This document shows positions 8,038 to 58,326 of a stretch of 64,000 nucleotides of DNA, piece after piece (positions within the stretch are counted from its first letter, which is position 1; each line of letters opens with the position of its first letter). The position numbers and the translations under genes were made by a program. Below the pieces are notes generated by a model, which did no database searches, was not told the origin of the DNA, and saw nothing but the letters and a program-made list of their open reading frames with translations. The stretch spans positions 74,899-138,898 of the forward strand of contig CACLJX010000001.1 of NCBI GenBank assembly GCA_902607435.1, written 5' to 3'. Source of the DNA: an uncultured Alphaproteobacteria bacterium. GTDB lineage: Bacteria > Pseudomonadota > Alphaproteobacteria > HIMB59 > GCA-002718135.

Positions 8038-8679
8038 TTACAAATTAATAAGTGAATAAATTCCAATTCCTGCAAAACAAATACCAGTTATTCTTAGTAT
8101 CACTATGCTTAATTTTGTTTTAATAGCAAAATAACCTAAAATAACCCCAAATATATGTAGAGTTGCCGTACCTGTAGCAAAACCAAGTGCAAACAAAAAA
8201 GGATTGACTGCCCATGGCATTTCGAATCCATGTGCAGATCCATGAAAAAAACCAAAAATTCCAACAAAAATCATAGTTATTCCCACAGGTAATTTTTTTT
8301 CAATTGCAATAGATAAACCTAAGGCAATTACAGACACTAAAATTCCAATTTCAATTAAAAAATATAAAAAATCAGCAAAAATAAATGTTTGTCCAATTTC
8401 ATTTAGAGCAGAAGATTTTAATAATTGATTCATTTCAGCGTAAATTCCAATTAAGCCACCAACAATCATAATAAGTACAAAAGTTGAAGGTATTGTCCAA
8501 ATTGCTCTGTCTCCTATTTGGGCACTTATAATTCCTACGCTAACCATGGCCAAAAAATGATCAAAACCCAAAACAGGATGGGATAAACCATCATAAAATC
8601 CAATCATTCCTGTATAAGTGTGTGCATATGCAACTGAAGATATTAAAAAAAAAGAAATAATATAAAAAATAATTTTCAT
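8038..8679 (-). CDS. HupE/UreJ family membrane protein
   Basis: 213 aa, N-terminal signal-like segment then six to seven membrane helices. HPVLGFDHFLAMVSVGI with the HPxxGxDH motif and the later GFFHGSAHGFEMP are diagnostic of HupE/UreJ, a family implicated in nickel or cobalt uptake. No hydrogenase or urease genes are in the window, so the metal link is from the family only. It is 14 nt downstream of an unrecognised membrane-anchored protein and probably co-transcribed with it. Confidence 0.85.
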   Translation of the reverse strand: MKIIFYIISFFLISSVAYAHTYTGMIGFYDGLSHPVLGFDHFLAMVSVGIISAQIGDRAIWTIPSTFVLIMIVGGLIGIYAEMNQLLKSSALNEIGQTFIFADFLYFLIEIGILVSVIALGLSIAIEKKLPVGITMIFVGIFGFFHGSAHGFEMPWAVNPFLFALGFATGTATLHIFGVILGYFAIKTKLSIVILRITGICFAGIGIYSLINL

Positions 8680-8693
8680 GATACTTAAAAAAA

Positions 8694-9365
8694 TTATTTT
8701 TTTCTTAGAATTAATTTGTTTACGATAAAATACACAATAAATATTAAAACTAATAATATAATGTGTGGAAAATAAGCACGTACATCAAACTTTTGCCAAT
8801 GTATAATATCCATGTATGGTCCAATATAAAATAAAATTGGTGTCCAAGTTAATATTTGTTCCCATAAATTATCTCCAAAAAATTCAGCTTCACCTATTGC
8901 TAACGAATAATGACCTTGATTATTTTTATTGTAGACTTTTATAAAATAATTGCCTCCTGAAAGTGGAAAGCTAGTTTTAAATTCTGTATTTGTATCTGTT
9001 CCTATCTCAGGACCTTTCCAATAGTAATCACGTGCATAAGGTTCGTACCAAGCATTCCATTGAAAAGATTCACCATCTGCTTGGAAAAGGATAGTATTAT
9101 TTTCATCAATAACCTCTAATGATAGTGATTCATAAGTATCACTTACTTTTGGACTCAAGATGCCAGTATAAAATAAAAATTGTGTATCTGAATAAATTTT
9201 AAAATAATGTGGTTCACCTCTTAGTTGACCATAAAATGCTTTAGAGATTTCTGGATCATTAACCATGAATGGATTGTCTTTAGTAGGTGATTGATAAACT
9301 AATTTTGGTTGATGAGCTTCTAATGCACATGAAATAAATATTAAAAGCAAAATCAATCTATACAT
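8694..9365 (-). CDS. Unrecognised secreted, C-terminally membrane-anchored protein
   Basis: 223 aa. A short signal peptide (LLLIFISCALEAHQ; a cysteine near residue 13 could be a lipobox-like site but the following residues are not ideal) is followed by a soluble, beta-rich and aromatic-rich region, and near the C-terminus by a single membrane helix (HIILLVLIFIVYFIVNKLIL) with a basic tail, so most of the protein faces the periplasm. FPLSGGNYFIKVYNKNNQGHYSLAIG resembles the bacterial pre-peptidase-type beta domain in character. It is first in a two-gene operon with a HupE/UreJ protein. Function unknown; a role in metal delivery to that transporter is a guess from context. Confidence 0.6.
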   Translation of the reverse strand: MYRLILLLIFISCALEAHQPKLVYQSPTKDNPFMVNDPEISKAFYGQLRGEPHYFKIYSDTQFLFYTGILSPKVSDTYESLSLEVIDENNTILFQADGESFQWNAWYEPYARDYYWKGPEIGTDTNTEFKTSFPLSGGNYFIKVYNKNNQGHYSLAIGEAEFFGDNLWEQILTWTPILFYIGPYMDIIHWQKFDVRAYFPHIILLVLIFIVYFIVNKLILRKK

Positions 9366-9431
9366 AAAAAAAAATGCCTATATAGAATTTTGTTCTATAG
9401 TTAAACTATTTTTTTAGTGTAAAGATATTTT

Positions 9432-9878
9432 ATGAAAAAAATCTTATCCTTCCATACAAGACTAGGTTGGATGACTGCCATTGAACAAGATGGTAAAATT
9501 ATTGAACTTAAATTTATAAAAAGTAAGAGCGAGGGAAAATCACTAATTCTTCAAAGAACAAAGAATAATATTAATGATTTTTTTTCAAAAAAAACTAAAT
9601 CTTTTAAAATTCCATGTAAAATACATGGAAGTGATCTTCAAATTAGAATTTGGAGAGAATTAAAAAAAATACCTTATGGTAAAACTAAAAGCTATGGTGA
9701 TATAGCGAAGATAGTAAGAACATCACCTCGTTATGTTGGAAATGTGTGCGGACAAAATAAACATCTATTAGCTATTCCTTGTCACCGCGTCATAAGAACA
9801 GATGGAAATTTGGGAGGATTTTCTGGAACTGGTGGACTTTCTCTTAAAAAACGATTACTTAAATTGGAACAACAATAA
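9432..9878 (+). CDS. ogt: Methylated-DNA--protein-cysteine methyltransferase
   Basis: 148 aa, matching the usual length of Ogt. The active-site motif PCHRVI with the alkyl-accepting cysteine is followed by GGFSGTGGLSLKKRLL, and GKTKSYGDIAKIV is the helix-turn-helix entry. It removes O6-alkylguanine damage by moving the alkyl group to its own cysteine. It reads divergently from the HupE pair and is 8 nt before the amidotransferase gene. Confidence 0.93.
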   Translation: MKKILSFHTRLGWMTAIEQDGKIIELKFIKSKSEGKSLILQRTKNNINDFFSKKTKSFKIPCKIHGSDLQIRIWRELKKIPYGKTKSYGDIAKIVRTSPRYVGNVCGQNKHLLAIPCHRVIRTDGNLGGFSGTGGLSLKKRLLKLEQQ

Positions 9879-9886
9879 TATTTTAC

Positions 9887-10606
9887 ATGAAAATACTTAT
9901 TCTTCAACACATAGAGTTTGAAACTCCAGGATATATCAAAGATTTGATGTTGAGTGATGGTTTTGATTTGACCACTATTGAACTTGATGTGGGAGAAAAA
10001 ATACCTGACAATATTAATCAATTTGATGGTATGTTTTGTATGGGCGGTCCCATGGATACTTGGATGACGGATAAATATCCTTGGATTATTGATGAGAAAA
10101 ATAAAATAAAAGAATTTATTATAGATTTAGAAAAACCTTTTTTAGGATTTTGTCTTGGATGTCAATTTTTAGGAGAAGTTGTTGGAGGAAAGGTAATAAA
10201 ATCAACCCCACCTGAAATAGGTATTCTTGATATTAATATGGAAGAACAAAGTAAAGAAGATCAATTATTTTCTACTTTTCCAAATATTATTAAAGCACTA
10301 CAATGGCACTCTTATGAGGTTGTTGGACTTGAAGATAATAATAATATTACTCTTTTAGCTTCATCCCCAACAACGAAATATCAAATTTTTAAATACAAAA
10401 ATAATGCTTATGGCATTCAATTTCACATAGAAATCAAGAGCAATACAGTCAGTGATTGGGGATGTATTCCAGAATATAAAAATGCATTAGAGGATAGTTT
10501 GGGACAAGATGCATTAGAGAAATTTGAACAAGTTGCAGCAGAAAATATGCAAGACATGAATACTTATGCAACAATACTATATAAAAATTTTTGTAAATTA
10601 ATGTAA
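9887..10606 (+). CDS. Class I glutamine amidotransferase-like protein
   Basis: 239 aa. The nucleophile elbow GFCLGCQ places the catalytic cysteine at residue 89, and FHIEI supplies the His and Glu of the triad (FHIEIK, not the more common FHPE). The fold is that of stand-alone GMP synthase-like amidotransferases. No synthase domain or partner is attached, so the acceptor is unknown. It follows ogt by 8 nt. A gene remnant on the other strand ends 2 nt after its stop. Confidence 0.82.
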   Translation: MKILILQHIEFETPGYIKDLMLSDGFDLTTIELDVGEKIPDNINQFDGMFCMGGPMDTWMTDKYPWIIDEKNKIKEFIIDLEKPFLGFCLGCQFLGEVVGGKVIKSTPPEIGILDINMEEQSKEDQLFSTFPNIIKALQWHSYEVVGLEDNNNITLLASSPTTKYQIFKYKNNAYGIQFHIEIKSNTVSDWGCIPEYKNALEDSLGQDALEKFEQVAAENMQDMNTYATILYKNFCKLM

Positions 10607-10607
10607 C

Positions 10608-10691
10608 TTACATTTTCCAGCCTATAACTTTTGCGCGAACAGGACTATCCCTTACTGCAGCGACATGTATATGGAGGGATTGTTTTAGTTC
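10608..10691 (-). pseudogene. Possible remnant of a protein C-terminus
   Basis: On the minus strand 27 codons lie between two stops and read like protein (HIHVAAVRDSPVRAKVIGW...), while the flanking bases are plain AT-rich spacer. The stretch is visibly richer in G and C than its surroundings. It has no start codon. It may be the leftover tail of a decayed gene; I do not recognise the family. The remaining 10692-10848 shows nothing else I can name. Confidence 0.25.
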
Positions 10692-10848
10692 TTAAGAAGA
10701 AGTTTATATTAGATAACATATAATATTTATATATGTTTTTTCATGCAAAGAAGAAAAATCCAAGGCTATATAAAATTTTTGATATTGAGAGCAGAGCTTA
10801 TATTAAAGACTTATGGTATATAAAAATATTATAAAATTAATTTTATAT

Positions 10849-11400
10849 TTAAGCATTCCCTGAGAATAGAGAAAGATTAGTAGGATCAATGCCTATTAAT
10901 TTATAAGCATCATCCCATTTGGTCGTTACTTTTTCATCAAACAAAAAACTAGATTCTATTGGCATATTCATCCAACTATTTTTTTTAATCTCATATTCTA
11001 ATTGACCAGCACTCCAACCGGCGTATCCTAAAGCTAAAATACTATATTTTGGGCCTTTATTATTTGTTAAATTATCAAAAAATTCAGCTGTATTTGTTAA
11101 AGCTACACCTTTATCTATAGTAAGTGTTTCTTTACGAATTAAATCATCAGAATGAAGAATAAAACCTCTCCCAGTTTCAAGAGGACCACCATATCGGATA
11201 AAAAACTTCTTGTTTTTGAGAGGCTTATCAATGCCTAATTGTTGTAAAAGATCGGGATATAGATCATGATCAATTTTTTTATTAATAATAATACCCATTG
11301 ATCCTTCTTTAGAATGAGCGCACATGTAAATAACGGTTTTGTAAAATCTTTCATCTTTTAATGATGGCATGGAAACTATAATTTGACCAGTTAAATCCAT
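10849..11400 (-). CDS. yqgE: YqgE/AlgH family protein (UPF0301)
   Basis: 183 aa. TGQIIVSMPSLKDERFYKTV near the N-terminus and GSMGIIINK are the conserved blocks of the YqgE/AlgH family, and LALGYAGWSAGQLEYEI is its C-terminal signature. Proteins of this family are widespread in Proteobacteria but their biochemical role is unsettled. The gene reads away from the DsbD-like gene. Confidence 0.92.
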   Translation of the reverse strand: MDLTGQIIVSMPSLKDERFYKTVIYMCAHSKEGSMGIIINKKIDHDLYPDLLQQLGIDKPLKNKKFFIRYGGPLETGRGFILHSDDLIRKETLTIDKGVALTNTAEFFDNLTNNKGPKYSILALGYAGWSAGQLEYEIKKNSWMNMPIESSFLFDEKVTTKWDDAYKLIGIDPTNLSLFSGNA

Positions 11401-11489
11401 TAAATTAAGTAAGACTTTCTATAAACGTTTTTTTTACAATATATTAGTTATATAGTTACCATATCAAAAACAATAAAAATGTTAAGTAA

Positions 11490-13544
11490 ATGTTAAGAAT
11501 TATTTATTTTTTTCTAATCTGGGTAATTTTTTTTCAATTTAAATTTGTTTATGCTCTTCAAAGTGATTGGAGTAACGGAATAGAAGCAAAAATACGTATT
11601 ATTTCACCTTTAACACACAACAACAATCATTCGTTATTGTATTTAGGTTTAGAATACCAACTCCAGGATGGTTGGAAAACGTACTGGAAATCTCCTGGTG
11701 AAGGAGGGTTTCCTCAAGAATTGGATTGGAGTAAATCCACAAATGTATCTAATATAGAAATCTTGTGGCCGACACCTGTTGAATTTGAAATTTTAGACAT
11801 TAAATCTCTTGGATATCAAGAAGAGGTTATTTTTCCTCTTAAAATTTTTTTGAAGAATATTCATAAAGATACTTTTTTATCATTTAATATAAATTTTTTA
11901 ACATGCAAAGATATTTGTATACCAGGCAAAGCTGATTTAGAATTAACATTACCTGCTGGAACTGGCCAGTTAACTAATCATTCTTTTTATCTAGAAAAAA
12001 GTTTATCTTCCGTACCAGTTCTAAATAAAAAAATAAAAGGACTAGAAATTATAGATACAGAAGGTTCGGTAAATAATAAGCATGTTTTTATAAATATTGA
12101 AGCAATATCTGATTCAATCTTTGAAGATCCAAAACTATATTTAGATTCAAACTTAGGACTGCCTCTTGTGGAATCTTACTATACTTATTCATTAGATCGA
12201 AAAAATGTAAAGGTACTTTTTGTTTTTAATAAATCGTTGTTTAAAAAAGACAAAATTGATTTGTCAGTTCTTCTTAAAGATAAGAAAATTGCTATTGAAC
12301 ATAAAACAATAATAAAGCTAAAAAAAGTATCTGATTCATTAAATTTTCAACAATCTTTTTATTATATTTTATTTATTTCATTAATCGGAGGAATCATATT
12401 AAATGTAATGCCTTGTGTGTTGCCCGTGTTATCAATTAAATTACTTTCTATATTAAATGATGAATCTTCATTAAAAATAACTAGAAAAAGTTTTTTAACT
12501 ACAGCACTTGGTATTATTTTTTCTTTTTTATTGCTTTCTATTACTTTATTAAGTTTAAGATACGTAGGTATAAGCATAGGTTGGGGAATCCAATTTCAGC
12601 AACCGTTATTCTTAATGGTGATTGCATTAGTATTGTTTTTATTTGCACTGAATCTATTGGGTTTTTTTGAAATTCTTTTACCAAATTTAGTTACAAATAT
12701 TTTTTCATCAAATAATAATACAAACTTATTGTATAAGGATTTTTTTAATGGTTTTTTTGCAACACTATTAGCCACACCTTGTTCAGCTCCCTTTGTTGGA
12801 ACAGCAATTACCGCTGCATTTACACAGACACCTTTTGTAATGATTAGCATTTTTTTAAGCATGGGTTTGGGTATGGCATCTCCATATATATTAGTGAGTA
12901 TATTTCCTAAATTAGTTAAATTCTTACCAAAACCTGGTAGTTGGATGAATGCAGTTAAATTTATTTTAGGTTTATTATTACTTGGGACGCTTGTATGGAT
13001 TGGATTTATTCTTCAAAATCATTTTAACTATTTATTTATTGTAATTTGTGCTGTTTTAGCTCTATTACTAACAATTAGTATTAAAATTTTTTTCAAAGAA
13101 AAACTACTAATTATTATTTTTTTTATCATTATTTTTTTTAGCCTACCTTTTTTTTCATTTTTAAAAGCTAACCAACCAATAGTTGAAACTGACTGGATTG
13201 ATATTACAACAGTCAAATTAGAAGATTTATTGGTAAATAATGATATTTTTTTTGTTGATATCACTGCTGATTGGTGTGCAACTTGCCAATTTAATAAGTT
13301 AAATGTTATTAATTCTTCAATTATTCAAGAAACTTTCGAACACAATAATATTATCAAACTTCGCGGTGATTGGACTAAACCAAACAAACAAATTGAAAGT
13401 TTTCTTCAACAACACAATCGATTTGGTATACCATTCAATATTATGTATAGTAAATATTATCCTAAAGGTATAATTTTGTCTGAATTATTAACTTCAACTG
13501 AAATCATTAAAACAATTGATCAATTACAGCAGGAAAATAAATAA
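11490..13544 (+). CDS. Thiol:disulfide reductase of the DsbD/ScsB type
   Basis: 684 aa. A signal sequence is followed by a periplasmic N-terminal domain with a CxxxC pair (CKDICIPGKA near residue 140). A central eight-helix region follows with the two membrane cysteines in NVMPCVLPVLSIKLL and LLATPCSAPFVG, and then a C-terminal periplasmic thioredoxin-like domain with ADWCATCQ. This is the ScsB/DsbD architecture, moving electrons from cytoplasmic thioredoxin to periplasmic clients. The ATG at 11478 runs into a stop, so 11490 is the start. A peroxiredoxin follows after 5 nt, suggesting joint use in thiol redox or peroxide defence. Confidence 0.88.
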   Translation: MLRIIYFFLIWVIFFQFKFVYALQSDWSNGIEAKIRIISPLTHNNNHSLLYLGLEYQLQDGWKTYWKSPGEGGFPQELDWSKSTNVSNIEILWPTPVEFEILDIKSLGYQEEVIFPLKIFLKNIHKDTFLSFNINFLTCKDICIPGKADLELTLPAGTGQLTNHSFYLEKSLSSVPVLNKKIKGLEIIDTEGSVNNKHVFINIEAISDSIFEDPKLYLDSNLGLPLVESYYTYSLDRKNVKVLFVFNKSLFKKDKIDLSVLLKDKKIAIEHKTIIKLKKVSDSLNFQQSFYYILFISLIGGIILNVMPCVLPVLSIKLLSILNDESSLKITRKSFLTTALGIIFSFLLLSITLLSLRYVGISIGWGIQFQQPLFLMVIALVLFLFALNLLGFFEILLPNLVTNIFSSNNNTNLLYKDFFNGFFATLLATPCSAPFVGTAITAAFTQTPFVMISIFLSMGLGMASPYILVSIFPKLVKFLPKPGSWMNAVKFILGLLLLGTLVWIGFILQNHFNYLFIVICAVLALLLTISIKIFFKEKLLIIIFFIIIFFSLPFFSFLKANQPIVETDWIDITTVKLEDLLVNNDIFFVDITADWCATCQFNKLNVINSSIIQETFEHNNIIKLRGDWTKPNKQIESFLQQHNRFGIPFNIMYSKYYPKGIILSELLTSTEIIKTIDQLQQENK

Positions 13545-48666: not shown

Positions 48667-48960
48667 CTTGAGTTAGTTATTTAATTTATTCTATTATCAC
48701 AATCACAATAAACTTTGAAAAGCAAAGTCTCTAGCAAAAATATCCTATATGTTTATTGTGTTAAATGATAATATTTTTAAAACCACGGTGTTTTTTATTA
48801 ATCATTTTCACTATTTTTTTCAAAATAATGATACGGTCTATACAAAATGAATTTGATTATGTTATGAGAAAATTGTGATATTGATAACTAAGCTTATTTC
48901 AGTAAATGAATAATATTATTATAAAACAAAAATTCTAATTTTTACTCATTGCAAAAAAAT

Positions 48961-50367
48961 ATGAGTAAAAATCGTGGTATATTGAACTATAAAATTTCAT
49001 TAAAATATATTCTTTTATTTTTGTATTTAAATTTCTTTATAATTATTTTATTTGGAGCAGCAGTAAATCATGGAGTTGCAAAAGGAAAGTTTTCTGATAC
49101 ATTTATAATTAGATCAATAGTATTAATAAGTTCTTTGCCATCTTTAACAGTTAATTATCTTAATTGTGGTATTTTCGAAAATGTACAATCATGTTTTAAA
49201 CTTGGTAATGCAGGTTTAGAATTTTTTACTGAAAAAACAGGAAAAGGAAATTTTTTTGCTGATAAACCAATTGGCTTAACACATTTTACAAAATCTTCAG
49301 AGGATTTAGAAGGTTATTTATTAATTCCTTTGTACTTCTTGGACGAAAAAAAAACTAAAATACAATTAGTAGATATTAACACAAAGAAAATTATTAATAC
49401 TTGGGATTCTGACATCAATAAAATTAATTCACAATCCTTAATTGATAGAAATTTAAGTAATTTAGAAAGAGACAGCAATCAAAGTCGTTATCAATATTTT
49501 AATCCTCTTTTATTTGATGACGGCAGTATAGTAGTTAATTCGGACTCACCATTGATAAAGATTGATAAATGCTCAAAATTGGTATGGCAAGTTGATGAAT
49601 TATTTCATCACGCCAGTAATTTTGATCACAATGGAAATATTTGGACCCCAACTACAAAAATACCAGGAAATTTTTTAAAGTTTAATATTAATTATTATGA
49701 TGATGAAATAACAAATATAGAAGCAAAAAATGGAAAGAAATTATATCAAAAGTCTGTGACTGAAATACTTGTTGAGAACAATTTAATAAATCTCATAACC
49801 AACTCGTATGAAGGCAATGATCCTATTCATTTAAATGATATTGAGCCTGTATTAAATGAAAGTGAATTTTGGAAAAAAGGTGATGTGTTTTTATCATTAA
49901 GAAATTTATCTATGATAATTTTATTCAGACCCTCTGAAAATAAATTAGTATGGTATAAACAGGGTCCATGGAGGCATCAGCATGATATTGATATAATTGA
50001 TAATGAAACCATAGCTGTTTATGACAATAATACAGATCTAAAACCTGAATTTATAAAAGCAGATCCTCAATCAAAACATAATGATGTTTTGTTTTATAAC
50101 TTTGCTTCAAAACAAATAACAAATCCATATGGAAAGTTGTTTTATAAACATAATATTAGGAGCAAAACAGGTTCTCTGTTTACAGTATTAAGTAATAAAG
50201 ATATTTTTGTAGAAGAAACAGATTATTCTAGATTGCTGAGGGGCAATACAGATGGAAGTGTAAAGTGGGAATTTATTTGGGACGCAAAAATTAATTGGGC
50301 ACGTTTTTTAAATGAAAAAAAATATAATAAAATTATAGAAACATTATATAAAACAGAATGCCCTTAA
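48961..50367 (+). CDS. Arylsulfotransferase (ASST)-like membrane-anchored protein
   Basis: About 468 aa from the ATG at 48961; the track's TTG is four codons earlier. One N-terminal membrane helix is followed by a beta-propeller-like domain with HHASNFDHNGNIWTP, DPIHLNDIEPVLNESEFW, and GPWRHQHDIDII, which match the Arylsulfotransferase_2 family (PAPS-independent in characterised cases). The conserved histidines of the propeller are present. It overlaps the next small gene by 10 nt and lies upstream of a P-loop sulfotransferase-like gene. Confidence 0.8.
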   Translation: MSKNRGILNYKISLKYILLFLYLNFFIIILFGAAVNHGVAKGKFSDTFIIRSIVLISSLPSLTVNYLNCGIFENVQSCFKLGNAGLEFFTEKTGKGNFFADKPIGLTHFTKSSEDLEGYLLIPLYFLDEKKTKIQLVDINTKKIINTWDSDINKINSQSLIDRNLSNLERDSNQSRYQYFNPLLFDDGSIVVNSDSPLIKIDKCSKLVWQVDELFHHASNFDHNGNIWTPTTKIPGNFLKFNINYYDDEITNIEAKNGKKLYQKSVTEILVENNLINLITNSYEGNDPIHLNDIEPVLNESEFWKKGDVFLSLRNLSMIILFRPSENKLVWYKQGPWRHQHDIDIIDNETIAVYDNNTDLKPEFIKADPQSKHNDVLFYNFASKQITNPYGKLFYKHNIRSKTGSLFTVLSNKDIFVEETDYSRLLRGNTDGSVKWEFIWDAKINWARFLNEKKYNKIIETLYKTECP

Positions 50368-50548: not shown

Positions 50549-50926
50549 TTGACTTTTTTTATTCCTTATCTAATTATTATTGTATGCTATGAGTTATTAA
50601 CTAGGTTTAACATTGTTAAAGACATTAGAAATTATATAGATATTCTTAAAAAAATTCCAAAAACGTTGAAACAAAAGTCATATTCAGATGAAATGAAATT
50701 TAAATTTATGATTCAGAATAGTGCAGAGCTAATGTTTTTAAGCATATATTTTTTGATGAAAATAATATTTATAATATTCCCATTAATAGTATTAATGAGT
50801 TTGGATTATTTTTTTGGTTCTAATTTTTCAAAATTTATTTATGATATATTTTTTTATATAATAGCATTACTAGTTTTATTTATTTATATTAGATTAAAAA
50901 AAATGATTTATGATTGGGAATTATAA
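50549..50926 (+). CDS. Membrane protein of unknown function
   Basis: 125 aa from a TTG start 2 nt after the previous stop. Three hydrophobic segments (FFIPYLIIIVCYELL, LSIYFLMKIIFIIFPLIVLM, and the C-terminal DIFFYIIALLVLFIYIR). No family recognised. It overlaps the sulfotransferase-like gene by 17 nt, so it belongs to the same operon. Confidence 0.65.
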   Translation: MTFFIPYLIIIVCYELLTRFNIVKDIRNYIDILKKIPKTLKQKSYSDEMKFKFMIQNSAELMFLSIYFLMKIIFIIFPLIVLMSLDYFFGSNFSKFIYDIFFYIIALLVLFIYIRLKKMIYDWEL

Positions 50927-51917
50927 TTTTTTTGAAAGGTTTTTACACAAGATAGTATTAAAAAATAATATATTAAGTAATTTTCTTTTTGATATTGAAA
51001 AATACCTTTTTCTTCAAAAAGAACATACTAATTATTTAAGTATTTTTATTACTGGCTTGGCAAGAAGCGGCAGCACATCTTTGTTAAACTCTTTTTATAA
51101 TACCAATAAATTTGCGTCACTTACCTATAAAGATATGCCCTTTATTATAGCACCAAACCTGTGGAATAAAATTAATTTTAGATTAAATAAAAAATATTCT
51201 CAAAGAGCTCATAATGATAATATTTATATAAATTATGAAAGTCCTGAAGCATTTGAGGAAGTTTTTTGGAAAAAAATTTTAAAAGAAAAATATATTTTAA
51301 AAGAAAATTTAATTTCCCATAATCTTTCTGAAATTGAATTAAATCAATTTAAGTATTTTATTAATTTAGTTTTACGATGTAAAAATTTAAATTACTACGT
51401 ATCAAAAAATAATAATAATATTTTAAGAATTAAAGCATTATCAAACAATTTAAATAATGCATTATTTATTGTACTTTTTAGAGATCCAATAAATCAATCA
51501 AATTCATTATTAAATCAACATTTAAAATTTATAGATTTACAAAATAAAAATAATTTTATTGAGGATTATATGAACATGCTTGGACATTATGAATTTGGGA
51601 ATAATCATAAGAGAGTTAAGTTTAAAGAAAATTATATACATAATAATTTCAACAATTTAGATTATTGGATTGAAATTTGGTATAAAACTTACAGTCATTT
51701 ATTTTTGAATTATAACAAAAAAAATGTTTATTTTATTTGTTATGAAGATTTATGCAAAAATACAAATATTTATCTTAAGAGAAAATTAAAAGACTTTGAT
51801 GTGTTTGAAAATATTACTTTTACGTCCATGTTTAACAAAAATCAATTTTATAAAAAAACTAATGGTTTATTAGAAAAAAAATCTTATGAATTATATGAAA
51901 AAATGAAAAATATTTAA
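50910..51917 (+). CDS. P-loop sulfotransferase-like protein
   Basis: 335 aa. The 5'-phosphosulfate-binding loop is seen in FITGLARSGSTSLLNSFYN near residue 50, and the 3'-phosphate-binding motif in FIVLFRDPINQSNSLLNQH near residue 190. Both fit PAPS-dependent sulfotransferases. ENYIHNNFNNLDYWIEIWYKTY and VYFICYEDLC match the C-terminal half. It would sulfate a sugar or another surface component. Very asparagine- and lysine-rich. Last gene of the ASST-like operon. Confidence 0.78.
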   Translation: MIGNYNFFERFLHKIVLKNNILSNFLFDIEKYLFLQKEHTNYLSIFITGLARSGSTSLLNSFYNTNKFASLTYKDMPFIIAPNLWNKINFRLNKKYSQRAHNDNIYINYESPEAFEEVFWKKILKEKYILKENLISHNLSEIELNQFKYFINLVLRCKNLNYYVSKNNNNILRIKALSNNLNNALFIVLFRDPINQSNSLLNQHLKFIDLQNKNNFIEDYMNMLGHYEFGNNHKRVKFKENYIHNNFNNLDYWIEIWYKTYSHLFLNYNKKNVYFICYEDLCKNTNIYLKRKLKDFDVFENITFTSMFNKNQFYKKTNGLLEKKSYELYEKMKNI

Positions 51918-51950: not shown

Positions 51951-52958
51951 TTATTTTTTAATTTTTCTAAACTCATTTAAAAGATTTTTTATTGAATTAC
52001 TGAAATCTACTTTAGTTTTCCATTTTACATCTTTTTTAAATTTATTAACATTTGGTATTTGGTAAGTAACATCCTGAAGTCTTAAACGTTTGCGGTCAAG
52101 TTTTAAGACAATCTTTTTCTTAGAAAGTTTTATTAAATTTTTTAAATAACTTTTAACAGTAATAATATGATCTCCACCAATATTATATATTTCTCCTACT
52201 TTGCCATAAAGAGCAGTTTGCCAATATGCATTCATCGCATCTGCGATATCTTGAACACATCTTACACTATCTAAATTGCCATGTTTAAGAGTTTTTTTTC
52301 TACCTTTTTCGATATCAACTATTTGTTTAGCAAAAGCACTCATAAATAAATTTTCTCTTCTTGCATTAGAATAGGAAAACATACGTGTTATTATAATATT
52401 AAGACCATAGCTTCTATAATAAACCTGAGACATTAAATCCTGAAATGCTTTCGATACTGCATAAGGACTCACAGGCCTCATTGGTTGGTTTTCTTTTATT
52501 GGTGTCTCGCTTTTGGTTACATTGCCATATACTTCTGAAGAACTACAGGTAATTATTAGTGATTTAAGTTTTAGAATTCTTATGGATTCAAAAAGATTTA
52601 TTGTTATTAAATTATTATTAGTGATTATTTCTGCTGGCAAATCAAAAGATTTCCTCACGTCTGCATTGAACGCTAGATTATATATTAGATCAGGCTTTGT
52701 TTTTTTTAATACCAGTTGTAATTTTTTCTTATTTTTTAAATTTAATTTAAAAAAGGAAACTCTTTTTGGTGATATTTTTTTAGAAGGATTTTCTTTAAGA
52801 AAGTTAATTAATTGTTTTAATTTTTTTTCTGATCTATATGTGCCATATATTCTAATTTTACTATCTTTTTCTAAAATCGTTTCACACAAATAACTGCCTC
52901 CTGATCCAGTAATTCCGGTAATAAAACATTTTTTGAATTTTCTTTTGATATATTTCAT
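51951..52958 (-). CDS. NAD-dependent sugar epimerase/dehydratase, GDP-mannose 4,6-dehydratase-like
   Basis: 335 aa, extended SDR. TGITGSGGSYLCE is the cofactor loop, CSSSEVYGN holds the catalytic Ser/Glu region, and PYAVSKAFQDLM is YxxxK. The late RCVQDIADAMNAYW resembles the GMD/RMD branch. It acts on a nucleotide sugar. It follows the split transketolase genes on the same strand (31-nt gap), so it probably makes or processes the same unusual sugar. Confidence 0.83.
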   Translation of the reverse strand: MKYIKRKFKKCFITGITGSGGSYLCETILEKDSKIRIYGTYRSEKKLKQLINFLKENPSKKISPKRVSFFKLNLKNKKKLQLVLKKTKPDLIYNLAFNADVRKSFDLPAEIITNNNLITINLFESIRILKLKSLIITCSSSEVYGNVTKSETPIKENQPMRPVSPYAVSKAFQDLMSQVYYRSYGLNIIITRMFSYSNARRENLFMSAFAKQIVDIEKGRKKTLKHGNLDSVRCVQDIADAMNAYWQTALYGKVGEIYNIGGDHIITVKSYLKNLIKLSKKKIVLKLDRKRLRLQDVTYQIPNVNKFKKDVKWKTKVDFSNSIKNLLNEFRKIKK

Positions 52959-52989
52959 TGAATTAAAATTTATTAAAAAATCTAATATA

Positions 52990-53934
52990 TTATTTTGTTA
53001 ACTCTATAATAGCCTTTTTAATTTTTTTGATAGACAATCCATTGATGTCTAGTAACTTTGATCTACCAATATTTTCATAAATGAATTTATCCGGAAGACT
53101 AAGATTTTTTATTTGTTGATTTTTATATATATTTTCATAAATTAGTGAGCCCAAACTTCCGGACAAAGTTTGTTCGTCTAACGTTAATATTGATTTATAT
53201 TTACTCAATTCTTTTTTTAATTTTTCAGGAAAAGGTTTGGATCTTATTAAATCAATTATAGTAATTTTTGATTCATATTTTTTGCTTAAGTCATTTACAG
53301 CCTCAATTGCTCTCGAAATGATAGTTCCATGGCTAACAATACAAACCCCACCTGTCTTTAATTTAGATTTTTTCAAAATCCTATATCCATATTTAATTTG
53401 ACTTAAATTTAATTTTGTTGATAAATTTAATCCAGGACTTCTATCCAATCTAATAAATTTAGGTCCATTATTTAAAGTAGTTTGCTTAGCTATTAATTTT
53501 GCAACCAATGGATCAGAAGCTGTGTAAATTTCACAATTCGGTAAGGTTCTTAAACATGCAAAATCTTCTGTTGAATAATGAGTTGGACCTGAATTAGCAT
53601 AACTTAATCCAATACCAGTAATAATTGAACAAACATCTAAGTTCATTAAACAAGAAGCAGTTTTATGTTGTTCAATGCATCTTAAAGAAAGAAATGGAGC
53701 CATTGCATAAATATAAGTTTTGTTGCCCTCTAAAGATAAACCAGCAGCAAAATCAACCATATTCTGCTCACAAATTCCTAAATGTAAAAATTGTGATTTT
53801 AAATTAAATCTGAAATTATCAAGTGCCGGCGCTCCAAAGTCAGCACTTAAAAAAAAAATTTTTTTATTTTTTTTTGCTAATTTATAAATTTCCTCAATAA
53901 ATTCGTCTCTTTGAAATAAAATTTTGTTAACCAT
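52990..53934 (-). CDS. Transketolase-like, C-terminal subunit
   Basis: 314 aa. It covers the pyrimidine-binding and C-terminal domains: DFAAGLSLEGNKTYIYAMAPFLSLR, SYANSGPTHYSTEDFACLR, then IVSHGTIISRAIEAV and LDEQTLSGSLGSLIYE. The glutamate that activates TPP is expected in the GICEQNMVDF segment. It needs the N-terminal subunit encoded 1 nt upstream. In surface-glycan clusters such split transketolases are thought to build branched or otherwise unusual sugars. Confidence 0.87.
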   Translation of the reverse strand: MVNKILFQRDEFIEEIYKLAKKNKKIFFLSADFGAPALDNFRFNLKSQFLHLGICEQNMVDFAAGLSLEGNKTYIYAMAPFLSLRCIEQHKTASCLMNLDVCSIITGIGLSYANSGPTHYSTEDFACLRTLPNCEIYTASDPLVAKLIAKQTTLNNGPKFIRLDRSPGLNLSTKLNLSQIKYGYRILKKSKLKTGGVCIVSHGTIISRAIEAVNDLSKKYESKITIIDLIRSKPFPEKLKKELSKYKSILTLDEQTLSGSLGSLIYENIYKNQQIKNLSLPDKFIYENIGRSKLLDINGLSIKKIKKAIIELTK

Positions 53935-53935
53935 A

Positions 53936-54751
53936 TTAATTATTTAATTGTTCTAAGACTTCATTATAAGTTTTCTCAGAAATATTGTTCCAATAATGCC
54001 AATTTGGTTTATTCTCCATTATTTTTATACCCTTACCTTTGATAGTATAAGTCATTAAACAAGTTGGTTTTTTTGAAATTTGTAATTTTTTTAAATTTTT
54101 ATAGATTTGTACAAAATCATGACCATTACATTTTGCAGTTTTAATTCCAAAACTTTTTAATTTTGCTTCAATATTACCAAGATCTAAACATTTTTTTGGA
54201 TTGCCTAAGATAATGTTATTGTTAATATCTAAAATAATATACAAATTATCGAGTTTCAAAGAAGACAATAATAATAAAGATTCCCAAGTAGAACCTTCAT
54301 ATAGTTCTCCCTCACTTATGATAATAAAGATCTTTTTATCATTTTTATTTTTTTTTGCAGAAAAAGCAATTCCAGTTCCAAAACCTATTCCATGACCTAG
54401 AGATCCAGTTGCAGCTTTAATGCCTGGAATAGAGTTATTTCCAAAAATTCTTAAATTGGTTTTATTATTAATTCCCCAGTTATTCCAATCCTTGGAAGAT
54501 ATGATATTTAAATCATGAAGAATAGGATATTGGGCAAATGTTGCATGACCTTTGCTGACAATAATATCATCTTTTAATGGATGCTTTTTATTTTTTTTGT
54601 TCAATCTAACAAATCCTGAGTAATATAAAACAACTAGCACATCCATTATAGACATTGCCGAACCAGGATGTCCTTCCTTAAGCAAATAACATTTTTTGAA
54701 GAGTTTTCTTCTCATTTCATTTGCTTTGTTTTTTAATAAATTAATATTCAT
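53936..54751 (-). CDS. Transketolase-like, N-terminal TPP-binding subunit
   Basis: 271 aa. KEGHPGSAMSIMDVLVVLYY and SKGHATFAQYPIL are the transketolase N-terminal blocks, GSLGHGIGFGTGIAFSAKK and EGELYEGSTWESLLL contain the GDG-like TPP/metal motif region (GE here for GDG, as in other split enzymes), and YTIKGKGIKIMENKPNWHYW is the domain end. Overlaps the radical SAM gene by 11 nt and precedes its partner by 1 nt, so the three are translationally coupled. Confidence 0.87.
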   Translation of the reverse strand: MNINLLKNKANEMRRKLFKKCYLLKEGHPGSAMSIMDVLVVLYYSGFVRLNKKNKKHPLKDDIIVSKGHATFAQYPILHDLNIISSKDWNNWGINNKTNLRIFGNNSIPGIKAATGSLGHGIGFGTGIAFSAKKNKNDKKIFIIISEGELYEGSTWESLLLLSSLKLDNLYIILDINNNIILGNPKKCLDLGNIEAKLKSFGIKTAKCNGHDFVQIYKNLKKLQISKKPTCLMTYTIKGKGIKIMENKPNWHYWNNISEKTYNEVLEQLNN

Positions 54752-56270
54752 TTGAATTTTCTAAAATTTGTCTATTTAATTTTATGTTAGAAAGCTTTGT
54801 AATATTGTTCTTGCTTTCTTTACCAAATTTTTTTTCAATCATATTTAAAAAATTTGGATTAGTAAAATATTTTTGCCATGCTTCATCTCTAAACTGTAAA
54901 ACTTCTTTAGAAGTACAGTAGTTTGTCCTCAAAGGTTTACACTCATAAGAAAAAAAAGCATATTCTTCAAATGAATTAGGTAAATCCCATTTTTTTTTCT
55001 TTGCTTCGAAATATAAAGGTGATCCAGGCAGGGCTTGGCAAGGGTAAAAATTTGCATGTTCTGTATTTAGTTCCATTGCTAAATCTAAAGTTTCATTCAT
55101 TCTCTGCATGCTGTCTTCAGGTAAACCAAATATATAATTTCCAAGAATATTTATACCATGGTCATTAATTGATTTTGTAACATCTCTTATATTAACCTTT
55201 TCAAATCTTCCTTTGTCTATATTTCTTCTAACTTCTTGATTCCCAGCTTCTATACCAAGACATAACCAGTTGACTCCTGCTTCTTTAAATAATTCGAGTT
55301 GATCATTTCTGACTGTATCTACTCTAGCATAAGCCCACAAATTAAATTTTAATCCACGATTAATTATTTCTTTTAATATTGGTACATAAAATTTTTTATT
55401 TAAAAAAAACATTTCATCAGACAGCCTAATAGTTTTAACCCCATAATTTGCTAGTATTTCAAGTTGATCTACAAAAAACATTGGGTCCCAGTGTCTCATA
55501 AGTTTGAAATCAGATGCTTTGGCATCCGAATTAATGCTATTTCTGTTTACAATATTAATCATACAAAAATTACAACCAAACTTACATCCCAATGAAGAAT
55601 AAACTGCAACAAAAGGCGTTCTATTTTTTTCTGAAAAAAAAGTATGCCAATAATGGGCTCTATATAAATCTAGTATATTTTTATTTTTAGGTAAAAGATC
55701 CCATGCGTAACCTGGTAATTCATTATTTATATCTTTTTCAAGTACAACTTCGCTAGGGGAATTTAATATAGGATTATTTTCTTCATCTTTGTAGCCAATT
55801 CCTTTAACTTTGTGGAGATTATTTTTAAGATCAGTTTTTAATAAATTATTTAATGAATATACCCCTTCATTAATGAATACAAAATCAATATAATTGTAGG
55901 AGAGCACCTCCATTGGTAAAGCACTGATATGTGAGCCTATAAAACCTATTTTTATCATTGGATGATGCAATTTTAACTGTTGGGCCAATCTAGTTGCTCC
56001 AATCATTAAAAACGTTCCTTGGTTTGGTTGTTGGCCATACAGCACAAAACATGCTAATCTGCACTTAGAGTCATTAATTTCTTCAATTGACTGTTCCTCA
56101 GTTAATCTTAAAGCATCACAATCAAGTATTTCACAAGATAAATTATTTTTTCTTATATTTGAGGCAAGCAATAAAGCCCAAGTGGGAGGCTCAATGGCAG
56201 TATAAATATTGGCTAAGTTTTGGTAAATCTTTTTAGCAGAATTTGGAATTACAAAAAGAACGTCAATCAT
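54741..56270 (-). CDS. B12-binding-domain radical SAM protein
   Basis: 509 aa. The N-terminal cobalamin-binding-like domain (about residues 1-180) contains GFIGSHISALPMEVL. The radical SAM cluster motif CxxxCxxC is in GCKFGCNFCMINI near residue 230, then WAYARVDTVRND and GLPEDSMQRMNETL continue the barrel. Members of this class include methyltransferases and ring-forming enzymes. It heads an operon with the split transketolase, suggesting a C-C bond step on a sugar or lipid precursor. Confidence 0.87.
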   Translation of the reverse strand: MIDVLFVIPNSAKKIYQNLANIYTAIEPPTWALLLASNIRKNNLSCEILDCDALRLTEEQSIEEINDSKCRLACFVLYGQQPNQGTFLMIGATRLAQQLKLHHPMIKIGFIGSHISALPMEVLSYNYIDFVFINEGVYSLNNLLKTDLKNNLHKVKGIGYKDEENNPILNSPSEVVLEKDINNELPGYAWDLLPKNKNILDLYRAHYWHTFFSEKNRTPFVAVYSSLGCKFGCNFCMINIVNRNSINSDAKASDFKLMRHWDPMFFVDQLEILANYGVKTIRLSDEMFFLNKKFYVPILKEIINRGLKFNLWAYARVDTVRNDQLELFKEAGVNWLCLGIEAGNQEVRRNIDKGRFEKVNIRDVTKSINDHGINILGNYIFGLPEDSMQRMNETLDLAMELNTEHANFYPCQALPGSPLYFEAKKKKWDLPNSFEEYAFFSYECKPLRTNYCTSKEVLQFRDEAWQKYFTNPNFLNMIEKKFGKESKNNITKLSNIKLNRQILENSNEY

Positions 56271-56387
56271 AAATTGTGGTATGTTGTTTCCAACTGAACA
56301 TTCTTGTATATTATATATTTTTTAATTGCCATTGCTATTTTATATTATTATTCTCTATTTCTTTATAACAGAACGAATAAAGCAAGC

Positions 56388-57464
56388 ATGAAGGTTGCCA
56401 TACTAATTCCTACTTTAAACCGGCTTTCTTTTTTAAGGCGTACGGTATTATACTATGATGCTATACAAAGCCCGCATCCTATATATATTGGTGATGCAAG
56501 CAATACTGAAACATCTAATGATGCAATTGCATTCCTGACAGATATTAACAATGTTGTAGTAAAGTACTTTCATTGGGAAAAATTGAGTTTTGAAAAAACA
56601 ACTATCAAACTTGCCAAAGAAGCTTCTGCTGAATTTGAATATTGCACATATCAAGGAGATGATGATTATTTCATTCCTTCTTCATTGACCAAATGTGCTA
56701 TATTTCTTTCTAAAAATTTTGATTATCGTACAGCACAAGGAAGGGCTGGACTTGTTACTATGGATGGACAAGAACCCTTAGGCACGATCAAAGATATATC
56801 AGAATACTGGGGAAAAAATTCACTTGAGGAGTCAAGTAAAATTGAAAGGTTATTATCCTTTCACGATAATTATTTTGTAGCACAGTTTTCTGTACATCGA
56901 ATTAATGAATTCATAGCTGATAGTAGTGATTTTTCAACTATTATTAATTCTCATATCAGTGAACAATTACACTGTTATACATTTGCTATTAAAGGAAAAT
57001 CTAAATTTATTGATTGCTTATATTTAATTAGAGTTCGTCATCCTGATTTATACATTCGTCATTATGAAGATGATGTTTTTGAAGCCATGTCTCGTGAAAA
57101 TTGGCATTATGATTATAACAAAATAATTGACTCTTTGAGTATTATACTCAGTGACGATGATAAAATATCTCTTTCAGAAGCGAAAAAAATTATTTCAGAT
57201 TTGATAAAACAAAGATTGAAATTTACCATAAAGCATTATCTTCAATTATCTATAAACAACGAAAAGAAAAAGAGTTTTTATATAAGATTGAAAAATATCG
57301 TACCTTGTTATTTAATAAATAAATTAAAATACACGAAAAATAAATTATTAAACAAGGAAATGAATTTATTAATGATCAAACATTCACGTTTTCGTTTAGA
57401 TTTTTTGCCGATTGTAAATAGTCTAACAGGTAAGAAATTTAGTGATGATGAAAAACAGATTTAA
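56388..57464 (+). CDS. TIGR00180-type family 2 glycosyltransferase
   Basis: About 358 aa from the ATG at 56388 (MKVAILIPTLNRLSFLRRTV). The track's TTG at 56304 would add a hydrophobic 28-residue N-terminus, which could be a genuine membrane anchor, so the start is uncertain. The GT-A-like fold is marked by IPTLNR and CTYQGDDDYFIPSSL (the DDD metal-binding acid cluster). It transfers a sugar to a surface glycan. It reads divergently from the radical SAM operon. Confidence 0.75.
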   Translation: MKVAILIPTLNRLSFLRRTVLYYDAIQSPHPIYIGDASNTETSNDAIAFLTDINNVVVKYFHWEKLSFEKTTIKLAKEASAEFEYCTYQGDDDYFIPSSLTKCAIFLSKNFDYRTAQGRAGLVTMDGQEPLGTIKDISEYWGKNSLEESSKIERLLSFHDNYFVAQFSVHRINEFIADSSDFSTIINSHISEQLHCYTFAIKGKSKFIDCLYLIRVRHPDLYIRHYEDDVFEAMSRENWHYDYNKIIDSLSIILSDDDKISLSEAKKIISDLIKQRLKFTIKHYLQLSINNEKKKSFYIRLKNIVPCYLINKLKYTKNKLLNKEMNLLMIKHSRFRLDFLPIVNSLTGKKFSDDEKQI

Positions 57465-57498: not shown

Positions 57499-58326
57499 TT
57501 ATATCTCCATCTCATCTATTGAAATATTATTATAATAGCTTCCAGGTTTATAAATTACAGGCCTTCTTCCAAAAAGGCTTTTGTAATATTTCTTTGTACG
57601 AGTCATTACAGAAACAATCACAATTCTGGCATCAACTGATACCCTCGTATAATTCTTAAGAGGCAAAGTACTGTGTAATTTCTTTGCATCGAATAGAGAT
57701 ACTTTTCCATATTTAAAGTTTTGAACAATAGAACTTTTATGAAATTTTAAAGAAATTTCAAAATTATTTTGTCTCATTTTATCTATATCAAAATTATATT
57801 CTTCAAATAATCCAACACTTTTTTTCAAAGAGTTTAAAGCAAATCCATATCCTTCACTTTTTGAAGGACTATTAAGAGGTAACCATAAATTTATTTCATA
57901 GGGAGGATGGCCATTCATCAAATCTGAATGATAAACAGGATAAAAACTATCTAAGGTTGAATGAGGAAAAAATACTCTTAAAGTTGGATGTTGCTGAAAA
58001 TAAAAATTTTCACCAATAAAATCTCGAATACCTGTTTTTAGTATTTCAATGTATTTGCTTTTAAAAGACTGATTTAATTCAGCAATATTTTTTGTAAACT
58101 TATTCAATCCATAAGTTTGATCAATAATCTTTAATTGATCATCAATTATTAAATGCAGATTTGATAAATCATTAAATGAACAAGAAATATTGTATTTTTC
58201 TTTTATCATTTTCAAAAATATATTTGAAAGTTCATTTATATTATTAACATCAATTAATTTATATCCATCATCATATTTATTAGTAAAATAATTATTTTGA
58301 TAAAAATCTTTTTTAAAATTTTCCAT
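57499..58326 (-). CDS. Fe(II)/2-oxoglutarate oxygenase-like protein (glycan cluster type)
   Basis: 275 aa. A HxD motif is in PVYHSDLMNGHPPYEINLWLPL and a distal His and Arg are in KLHSTLPLKNYTRVSVDARI, spaced as in non-haem dioxygenases. Similar proteins (StrG-like) occur in aminoglycoside and surface-sugar clusters. It may hydroxylate or oxidise a sugar intermediate. It is the last gene before tRNA-Arg on the minus strand. Confidence 0.7.
   Translation of the reverse strand: MENFKKDFYQNNYFTNKYDDGYKLIDVNNINELSNIFLKMIKEKYNISCSFNDLSNLHLIIDDQLKIIDQTYGLNKFTKNIAELNQSFKSKYIEILKTGIRDFIGENFYFQQHPTLRVFFPHSTLDSFYPVYHSDLMNGHPPYEINLWLPLNSPSKSEGYGFALNSLKKSVGLFEEYNFDIDKMRQNNFEISLKFHKSSIVQNFKYGKVSLFDAKKLHSTLPLKNYTRVSVDARIVIVSVMTRTKKYYKSLFGRRPVIYKPGSYYNNISIDEMEI

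Follow-up and report, generated by a model that had tools for sequence, protein, structure and literature searches.

A review of ThDP enzymes for branching keto sugars recognizes three classes: YerE-like enzymes, E1-like α/β pairs and split transketolases (PMC12247030). Both the PDH-E1-like pairs and the split transketolases are proposed to branch keto sugars, and the split-transketolase class comprises only 13 putative sequences, all from Streptomyces and uncharacterized (PMC12247030). The split-gene transketolases of miharamycin and amipurimycin lie beside keto-sugar genes and are proposed to transfer a hydroxyacetyl group to a ketone (PMC12247030). In the aKADH2 systems (AviB1/AviB2, aldgamycin, kibdelomycin), a PDH-E1-like α/β pair adds a pyruvate-derived two-carbon unit to a keto sugar; in yersiniose formation, the ThDP enzyme YerE branches a 3,6-dideoxy-4-keto sugar at C4 for the O-antigen.

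A route to keto-heptoses has been described in Campylobacter jejuni, where the capsular GDP-heptose enzymes (Cj1427, DdahA and the HS:5 C3-dehydratase) lead to GDP-4-keto-3-deoxy-heptoses (PMC10680097, PMC7949155). Cj1427 is a C4 oxidase (PMC7949155); with the C3-dehydratase it yields GDP-4-keto-3-deoxy-heptose in vitro, and a 4,6-dehydratase with the C3-dehydratase yields GDP-3,6-dideoxy-4-keto-heptose (PMC10680097). The Campylobacter route then proceeds by epimerization and reduction, and neither ThDP branching nor a radical SAM step is described there.

Here we describe a gene cassette that, like the miharamycin and amipurimycin systems, joins a split transketolase to keto-sugar genes, but which occurs in T4-like phages as well as in Gram-negative bacteria and includes ColD-, HddA- and Cj1427-type partners and a B12-type radical SAM enzyme (rSAM). 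Some copies carry a PDH-E1-like pair as in aKADH2, although this pair is short and alternates with the split transketolase. The pathway proposed below resembles that of YerE, but the latter is an acetolactate-synthase-type flavoenzyme acting on a CDP-hexose with no rSAM, whereas the cassette combines split ThDP enzymes with the same C4-dehydrogenase, 4,6-dehydratase and C3-dehydratase types as Campylobacter. We found no published description of the gene set and read it as a probable further form of ThDP-dependent sugar branching, with GDP-heptose as the sugar.

Organization of the locus

The locus lies in a 64,000-nucleotide stretch of DNA (the window) from an uncultured alphaproteobacterium. 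The initial annotation described four minus-strand genes that are coupled or nearly so, and all four are indeed open reading frames in close spacing (Table 1): the rSAM and TKN genes overlap by 11 bp, TKN and TKC are 1 bp apart, and 31 bp separate TKC from the SDR.

Table 1. Features of the operon and its neighbors in the window.
Feature	Position	Strand	Remarks
Radical SAM enzyme (rSAM), B12-type	54741-56270	-	509 aa; Pfam/NCBIfam; conserved cassette anchor
TKN, N-terminal (ThDP/Mg) subunit, split transketolase-type	53936-54751	-	271 aa; Transketolase_N 88 bits
TKC, C-terminal (pyrimidine and C domain) subunit, split transketolase-type	52990-53934	-	314 aa; Transket_pyr 71 bits, Transketolase_C 41 bits
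SDR, GDP_Man_Dehyd-type, GDP-heptose 4,6-dehydratase-like	51951-52958	-	335 aa; SSSEVYG motif common to 7us5
Glycosyltransferase, divergent neighbor outside the conserved set	56304-57464	+	TIGR04440 156 bits (cut-off 70)
2OG oxygenase-like neighbor outside the conserved set	57499-58326	-	TIGR04324 62 bits (cut-off 150)

The initial annotation noted the glycosyltransferase and the oxygenase, the latter as StrG-like, next to the operon. Neither travels with the set, as no match to them was found near rSAM in the bacterial and viral loci tallied below, and the oxygenase gene had no StrG-family match, resembling only TIGR04324 at a score below that model's cut-off. A link to the NCBIfam 'sporadic carbohydrate cluster' that this model denotes was rejected on the same score and for want of linkage to the cassette; we found no paper on that cluster.

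The genome assembly, which spans 1.5 Mb on 37 contigs and is 84% complete, encodes a second split transketolase pair as well as a separate full-length transketolase of 656 aa (C1:174217-175161). Because of the latter, the split transketolase of the window is not the central one; a role of its close homologues in central metabolism, which the initial annotation named as speaking against its reading, did not emerge. A fuller, E1-type cassette is found on contig C13, with a Cj1427-like SDR (51% identical to a Bradyrhizobium copy), HddA, a GDP-fucose-synthase-like protein (GFS), a second rSAM (45% identical to that of the window), E1a, E1b and ColD (61% identical to a Methylobacter ColD). The window operon is therefore a second, transketolase-type branch. 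In the window only the dehydratase-like SDR stands beside rSAM and the transketolase, with the ColD, kinase and Cj1427-like genes on the other contig; the operon could share precursors with the C13 cassette, a link that we infer. The genome also encodes a GmhA-like protein. Its best HddC candidate, in an assembly that is 84% complete, reaches 30% identity and is not a close match.

Distribution of the gene set in bacteria

Among 200 related genomes, rSAM occurs in only five besides this one, spread over genera. SDR, rSAM, TKN and TKC are contiguous (8234-12491) in another gene order in L018, whose genome belongs to a different family, and in L020 rSAM, TKN and TKC are contiguous, so that a chance grouping is very unlikely. 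The set also recurs more widely, as the search suggested by the initial annotation revealed. At locus L206 a heptose-dehydratase-like SDR, a ColD-like protein, rSAM, TKN and TKC are contiguous, while in genome G124 the 9 kb read contain a close TKN/TKC pair but not rSAM. When 84,980 species genomes were scanned with an rSAM alignment, 209 loci emerged, the best 80 of which fall in at least seven phyla: Pseudomonadota, Nitrospirota, Verrucomicrobiota, Cyanobacteriota, Chlorobiota, Planctomycetota and Acidobacteriota, along with one deltaproteobacterium.

Partners were tallied by tblastn wherever rSAM had 4.5 kb or more of sequence to either side (56 bacterial and 21 viral loci), with ThDP genes counted within 9 kb. 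A split ThDP enzyme lies near rSAM at 54 of the 56 bacterial loci and at all 21 viral ones; relatives thus gave no sign that rSAM belongs to another pathway, an outcome that would have spoken against the initial annotation. The bacterial enzyme is a mini PDH-E1-like pair at 31 loci, a split transketolase at 22 and both at one, and no ThDP gene was detected beside rSAM in L024 (the same locus as L017) and L074. Other bacterial partners are HddA-like (52 loci), ColD-like (52), HddC-like (50), Cj1427-like SDR (48), GFS-like (37) and GmhA (20); in viruses, HddA is found at 21 loci and ColD and the Cj1427-like SDR at 20 each. The idea that GmhA marks transketolase-type loci only was discarded, since gmhA occurs with both ThDP types (11 transketolase, 9 E1) and is often missing from transketolase-type loci.

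Other alphaproteobacteria have a more remote rSAM group (38% identity), for which two loci were inspected and showed the same partners; one or the other group is present in 18 of 386 alphaproteobacterial genomes by profile search.

Partner genes and the probable substrate sugar

By NCBIfam, the closest models for the kinase, the nucleotidyltransferase and the isomerase of the cassette are the D-glycero-D-manno-heptose kinase HddA, the guanylyltransferase HddC and GmhA, respectively; these matches, like the GFS match, score under the equivalog cut-offs. For the DegT-family protein the closest relative is ColD (2gms), a PLP/PMP 3-dehydratase with His in place of Lys, and the active-site AHH motif is found in 117 of 119 cassette ColD-like proteins. 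The 312-aa cassette SDR matches 6vo6 (392 bits), which we take to be the GDP-heptose C4-dehydrogenase Cj1427. The SDR of the window is closest to GDP-heptose 4,6-dehydratase (7us5), though it scores nearly as high against GDP-4-keto-6-deoxy reductase.

The cassette at large thus contains the gene types of GDP-heptose metabolism (dehydratase or C4-dehydrogenase, kinase, guanylyltransferase, isomerase), and genes forming 4-keto (deoxy) NDP-sugars are linked to the ThDP gene: ColD and the Cj1427-like SDR at most bacterial loci, and a dehydratase-like SDR in the window, L206 and L018. Judged by these relationships, the substrate sugar is most likely GDP-heptose rather than a mannose derivative. 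The initial annotation had a two-carbon transfer and a radical step acting on a nucleotide sugar; recurrence of the set with ThDP and nucleotide-sugar genes agrees with this. By analogy with Campylobacter, GDP-4-keto-3-deoxy-heptose and GDP-3,6-dideoxy-4-keto-heptose would be suitable sugars for a ThDP enzyme to branch.

The radical SAM enzyme

The rSAM protein matches Pfam Radical_SAM (58 bits) and, under the 32.1-bit cut-off, the B12-binding family (23.6 bits). Its best NCBIfam match is HpnJ at 122 bits against a cut-off of 578, and it stays below all equivalog cut-offs. An N-terminal B12-type Rossmann domain and the CxxxCxxC cluster motif are both present, the motif (C229/C233/C236) being invariant across 53 homologues. 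An AlphaFold2 model built with 53 sequences has a mean pLDDT of 92.7, and a Foldseek search of the PDB with it returned AprD4 first, then TsrM, MgmA, CysS, OxsB and TokK. The predicted structure clearly belongs to the B12-type radical SAM fold class. AprD4, whose substrate is paromamine, is a 1,2-diol dehydratase rather than a methyltransferase, and it ranks before the methyltransferases in this search. AprD4, HpnJ, TsrM and OxsB share the fold and cluster motif with the cassette enzyme but differ in substrate, and identity to the nearest solved structures is only ~16%. Methylation, dehydration and ring closure are all candidate reactions, and homology predicts none of them. Other B12-domain proteins are also encoded in the genome.

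Active site of the split transketolase

The best solved relatives of TKN and TKC are 6yak, a split transketolase, and 6yaj, respectively. Residues were compared by alignment against the genome's own canonical transketolase and are numbered as in E. coli transketolase. In TKN of the window, Asn 185 is kept and Asp 155 is replaced by Glu, a residue also found at this position in BCKDH E1-alpha. TKC keeps the catalytic Glu 411, and the acceptor-phosphate residues Arg 358, Ser 385 and Arg 520 are retained. All aligned cassette transketolases have Glu 411, Asn 185, His 66, His 473 and either Asp or Glu at 155, and the cassette enzymes also keep Glu 160 and Arg 358. With Glu 411, Asn 185 and the acidic residue at 155 in place, their ThDP/Mg site is predicted to be intact; His 26 is kept in the window/phage type.

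Three canonical donor or acceptor contacts, His 100, His 461 and Asp 469, are absent in the window protein, where they are Phe, Gly and Ser. In the yeast and E. coli enzymes, His 100 contacts the C1-OH of the donor. Position 100 is Phe in all 57 sequences of the group formed by the window protein, its relatives and the phage proteins, and Ile in 24 of 25 bacterial cassettes; all cassette transketolases but one have lost the histidine, which is kept in eight of eight unrelated viral split transketolases. Throughout the cassette enzymes, position 461 is Gly and position 469 is Ser or Ala. Loss of His 461 is less telling because it is mostly absent in the unrelated viral split transketolases as well. 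(In the viral scan for TKN a single-sequence query gave no match, and an alignment query was required.) The combined loss of His 100 and Asp 469 suggests a changed donor or acceptor, without indicating which of the two.

Exchange of the two ThDP enzyme types

The E1-type pair is short (about 199 and 176 aa), and its β part lacks the C-terminal domain. In a tree built from 69 rSAM sequences by a quick search, with some long branches meeting, the transketolase/E1 label changes 13 times, with at least seven changes forced by well-supported branches, while phage versus cellular origin changes only twice. The nearest relative of the window rSAM itself (71%), from a Pelagibacteraceae single cell, stands with an E1 pair. 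Because of these repeated swaps, the two enzyme types are probably functionally equivalent in the cassette.

Occurrence in T4-like phages

IMG/VR contigs with rSAM have a T4-like gene order: portal, gp21, gp22, gp23, gp3-like, UvsY-like, UvsW, a gene of ~138 aa, the cassette, gp55, gp47 and gp46. Between uvsW and gp55 the phage cassette comprises rSAM, a ThDP pair, HddA, ColD and SDR, and both ThDP types alternate at this one site. The gp23 of contig L159 is 64.7% identical to that of cyanophage P-TIM40, and P-TIM40 and S-SSM7 have the same gene order without the cassette. A tblastn search of 50,697 phage records with the window and phage rSAM gave no match; since rSAM is absent from this cultured-phage collection, the phage link rests on the IMG/VR contigs, checked by gene order and the gp23 match. 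A pelagimyophage study reports rSAM gene cassettes in a hypervariable region, with no mention of this gene set in the parts of the article consulted (PMC7029224).

Proposed pathway

On balance we favor a role of the four genes as the C4-branching and radical SAM tailoring core of a GDP-3-deoxy-4-keto-heptose pathway whose final sugar is placed on a surface polysaccharide. If, as we infer by analogy, the cassette proteins act as the matching Campylobacter enzymes do, the SDR of the window, or the Cj1427-type dehydrogenase of other loci and the C13 cluster, would form a 4-keto GDP-heptose, from which the ColD-type enzyme, encoded on C13 beside the second rSAM copy, would take off the 3-OH. The split ThDP enzyme would then transfer a two-carbon unit from a presumed donor onto the ketone at C4. 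The product would be a 4-C-branched 3-deoxy (or 3,6-dideoxy) GDP-heptose with nine carbons in total. This branched sugar may be modified by rSAM and placed by glycosyltransferases on a surface polysaccharide, its putative destination.

The split transketolase might instead merely supply sedoheptulose-7-phosphate for heptose synthesis, with rSAM and the SDR acting on GDP-heptose and no branching at all. Many cassettes do contain gmhA and HddA/HddC-like genes, whose products act after that metabolite, and the window protein keeps its acceptor-phosphate residues; yet the genome has its separate transketolase, gmhA accompanies both ThDP types, the three substrate contacts are lost, and the slot often holds a PDH-E1-like pair, from which no sedoheptulose-7-phosphate would be expected, all of which renders this role improbable. 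The repeated exchange of transketolase and E1 types in one slot, including the single site in T4-like phages, speaks for another arrangement, in which the pathway is as proposed but the cassette transketolase uses pyruvate and transfers acetyl, so that both types of locus make the same sugar. Loss of the donor C1-OH contact at His 100 points the same way, whereas the retention of His 66 and His 473, with His 26 in the window/phage type, and an ordinary split transketolase as closest solved relative argue for the usual chemistry; we regard acetyl transfer as a possibility to be kept in mind, though doubtful.

As for destination, the product could be a small molecule rather than a surface sugar or, in phages, serve DNA or virion glycosylation. 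The T4-like phage genes do lie among head and recombination genes (L159) and not with tail-fiber or O-chain genes. However, L023 and L059, the bacterial copies inspected over their whole length, adjoin O-antigen-type ABC transporter genes, glycosyltransferases and methyltransferases, and the pathway steps fit capsule and LPS heptose routes, making a non-surface product rather unlikely.

Within the favored branching pathway, a more specific and speculative suggestion, which we consider unlikely as it stands, is that rSAM closes a carbon ring: once GDP-3-deoxy-4-keto-heptose bears the C2 unit at C4, joining C7 to C8 by radical chemistry would turn it into a carbocyclic nonose. Caryose is a 4,8-cyclo-3,9-dideoxy-nonose (PMC9671505), for which we found no biosynthetic route in the literature. 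A caryose-like product is considered because the skeleton fits, with 7 + 2 carbons, a 3-deoxy position, a C4-C8 bond and a terminal methyl, a match of carbon count and deoxy positions only. If ring closure were true, T4-like phages too would carry this pathway, which might exist in an acetyl and a hydroxyacetyl form. Bradyrhizose, a sugar of 10 carbons, has an 11-gene cluster of unknown steps (PMC4743980); a link of the cassette to this sugar was considered, and the only strong 8-Mb alphaproteobacterial carrier encountered has no photosynthetic reaction-centre gene.

Implications

Earlier proposals of ketone-acting split transketolases concern a few Streptomyces clusters, none characterized (PMC12247030), and the cassette offers many candidates in Gram-negative bacteria. 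Their likely acceptor is defined, and its synthesis in vitro has been published (PMC10680097). Nature also offers here an unusual experiment in enzyme replacement, since two unrelated types of ThDP enzyme exchange freely next to a single rSAM. Judging by the cassette in uncultured T4-like viruses, some phages may encode most of a pathway to a rare sugar. With such a gene set in hand, the origin of unusual higher-carbon bacterial sugars becomes directly testable.

Metal-binding motif and viral forms of the ThDP enzyme

In the N-terminal half of the split transketolase (TKN), SEGE stands where the metal motif for thiamine diphosphate (ThDP) is usually GDG, both in the window and in its relatives and the phage enzymes; the aligned BCKDH E1-alpha likewise has GEG. 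T4-like phages of uncultured hosts (IMG/VR contigs L102-L181 and L182-L203) carry the cassette, as five to six genes, at a constant site, after the 138-residue gene that follows uvsW and before gp55, with its ThDP slot filled by either the transketolase or the E1 type. In some of these contigs, a CTP-transferase-like gene follows gp55. Other viral contigs (L204, L205, L207 and L209-L213) encode split transketolases outside the cassette, and those aligned retain H100, a phenylalanine in the window protein. A mini ThDP enzyme pairs a PP domain resembling that of E1-alpha with a pyrimidine domain and lacks the transketolase C domain, both parts being covered by a single function-unknown family, phrog_34187 (405 residues).

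Coordinates of the features discussed
Feature	Location	Remarks
TKN	window 53936-54751	SEGE, residue E147
Arylsulfotransferase-like (ASST) protein	window 48949-50367	strand opposite to operon
Sulfotransferase	window 50910-51917	strand opposite to operon
Distant rSAM group	L230 7069-8532; L231 8603-10099	other alphaproteobacteria; 38% identity
Mini ThDP enzyme	L118 11499-12625, plus many other loci	about 199 + 176 residues

Genomic neighbourhoods

On contig C13 of the same genome (L005/L016, about 15-32 kb), the E1-type cassette and a second radical SAM (rSAM) paralogue lie inside a large sugar cluster. Upstream is an additional pair of transketolase halves in unusual gene company: its neighbours are a GmhA-like gene and the genes for a shikimate-dehydrogenase-like protein and for a fusion that resembles a nucleotidyltransferase joined to a kinase. 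The distant rSAM group is partnered by HddA, Cj1427-like SDR, ColD-like, NTase and E1-like genes.

The ASST-like and sulfotransferase genes are the immediate downstream neighbours of the operon, and their products could possibly sulfate a surface polymer.
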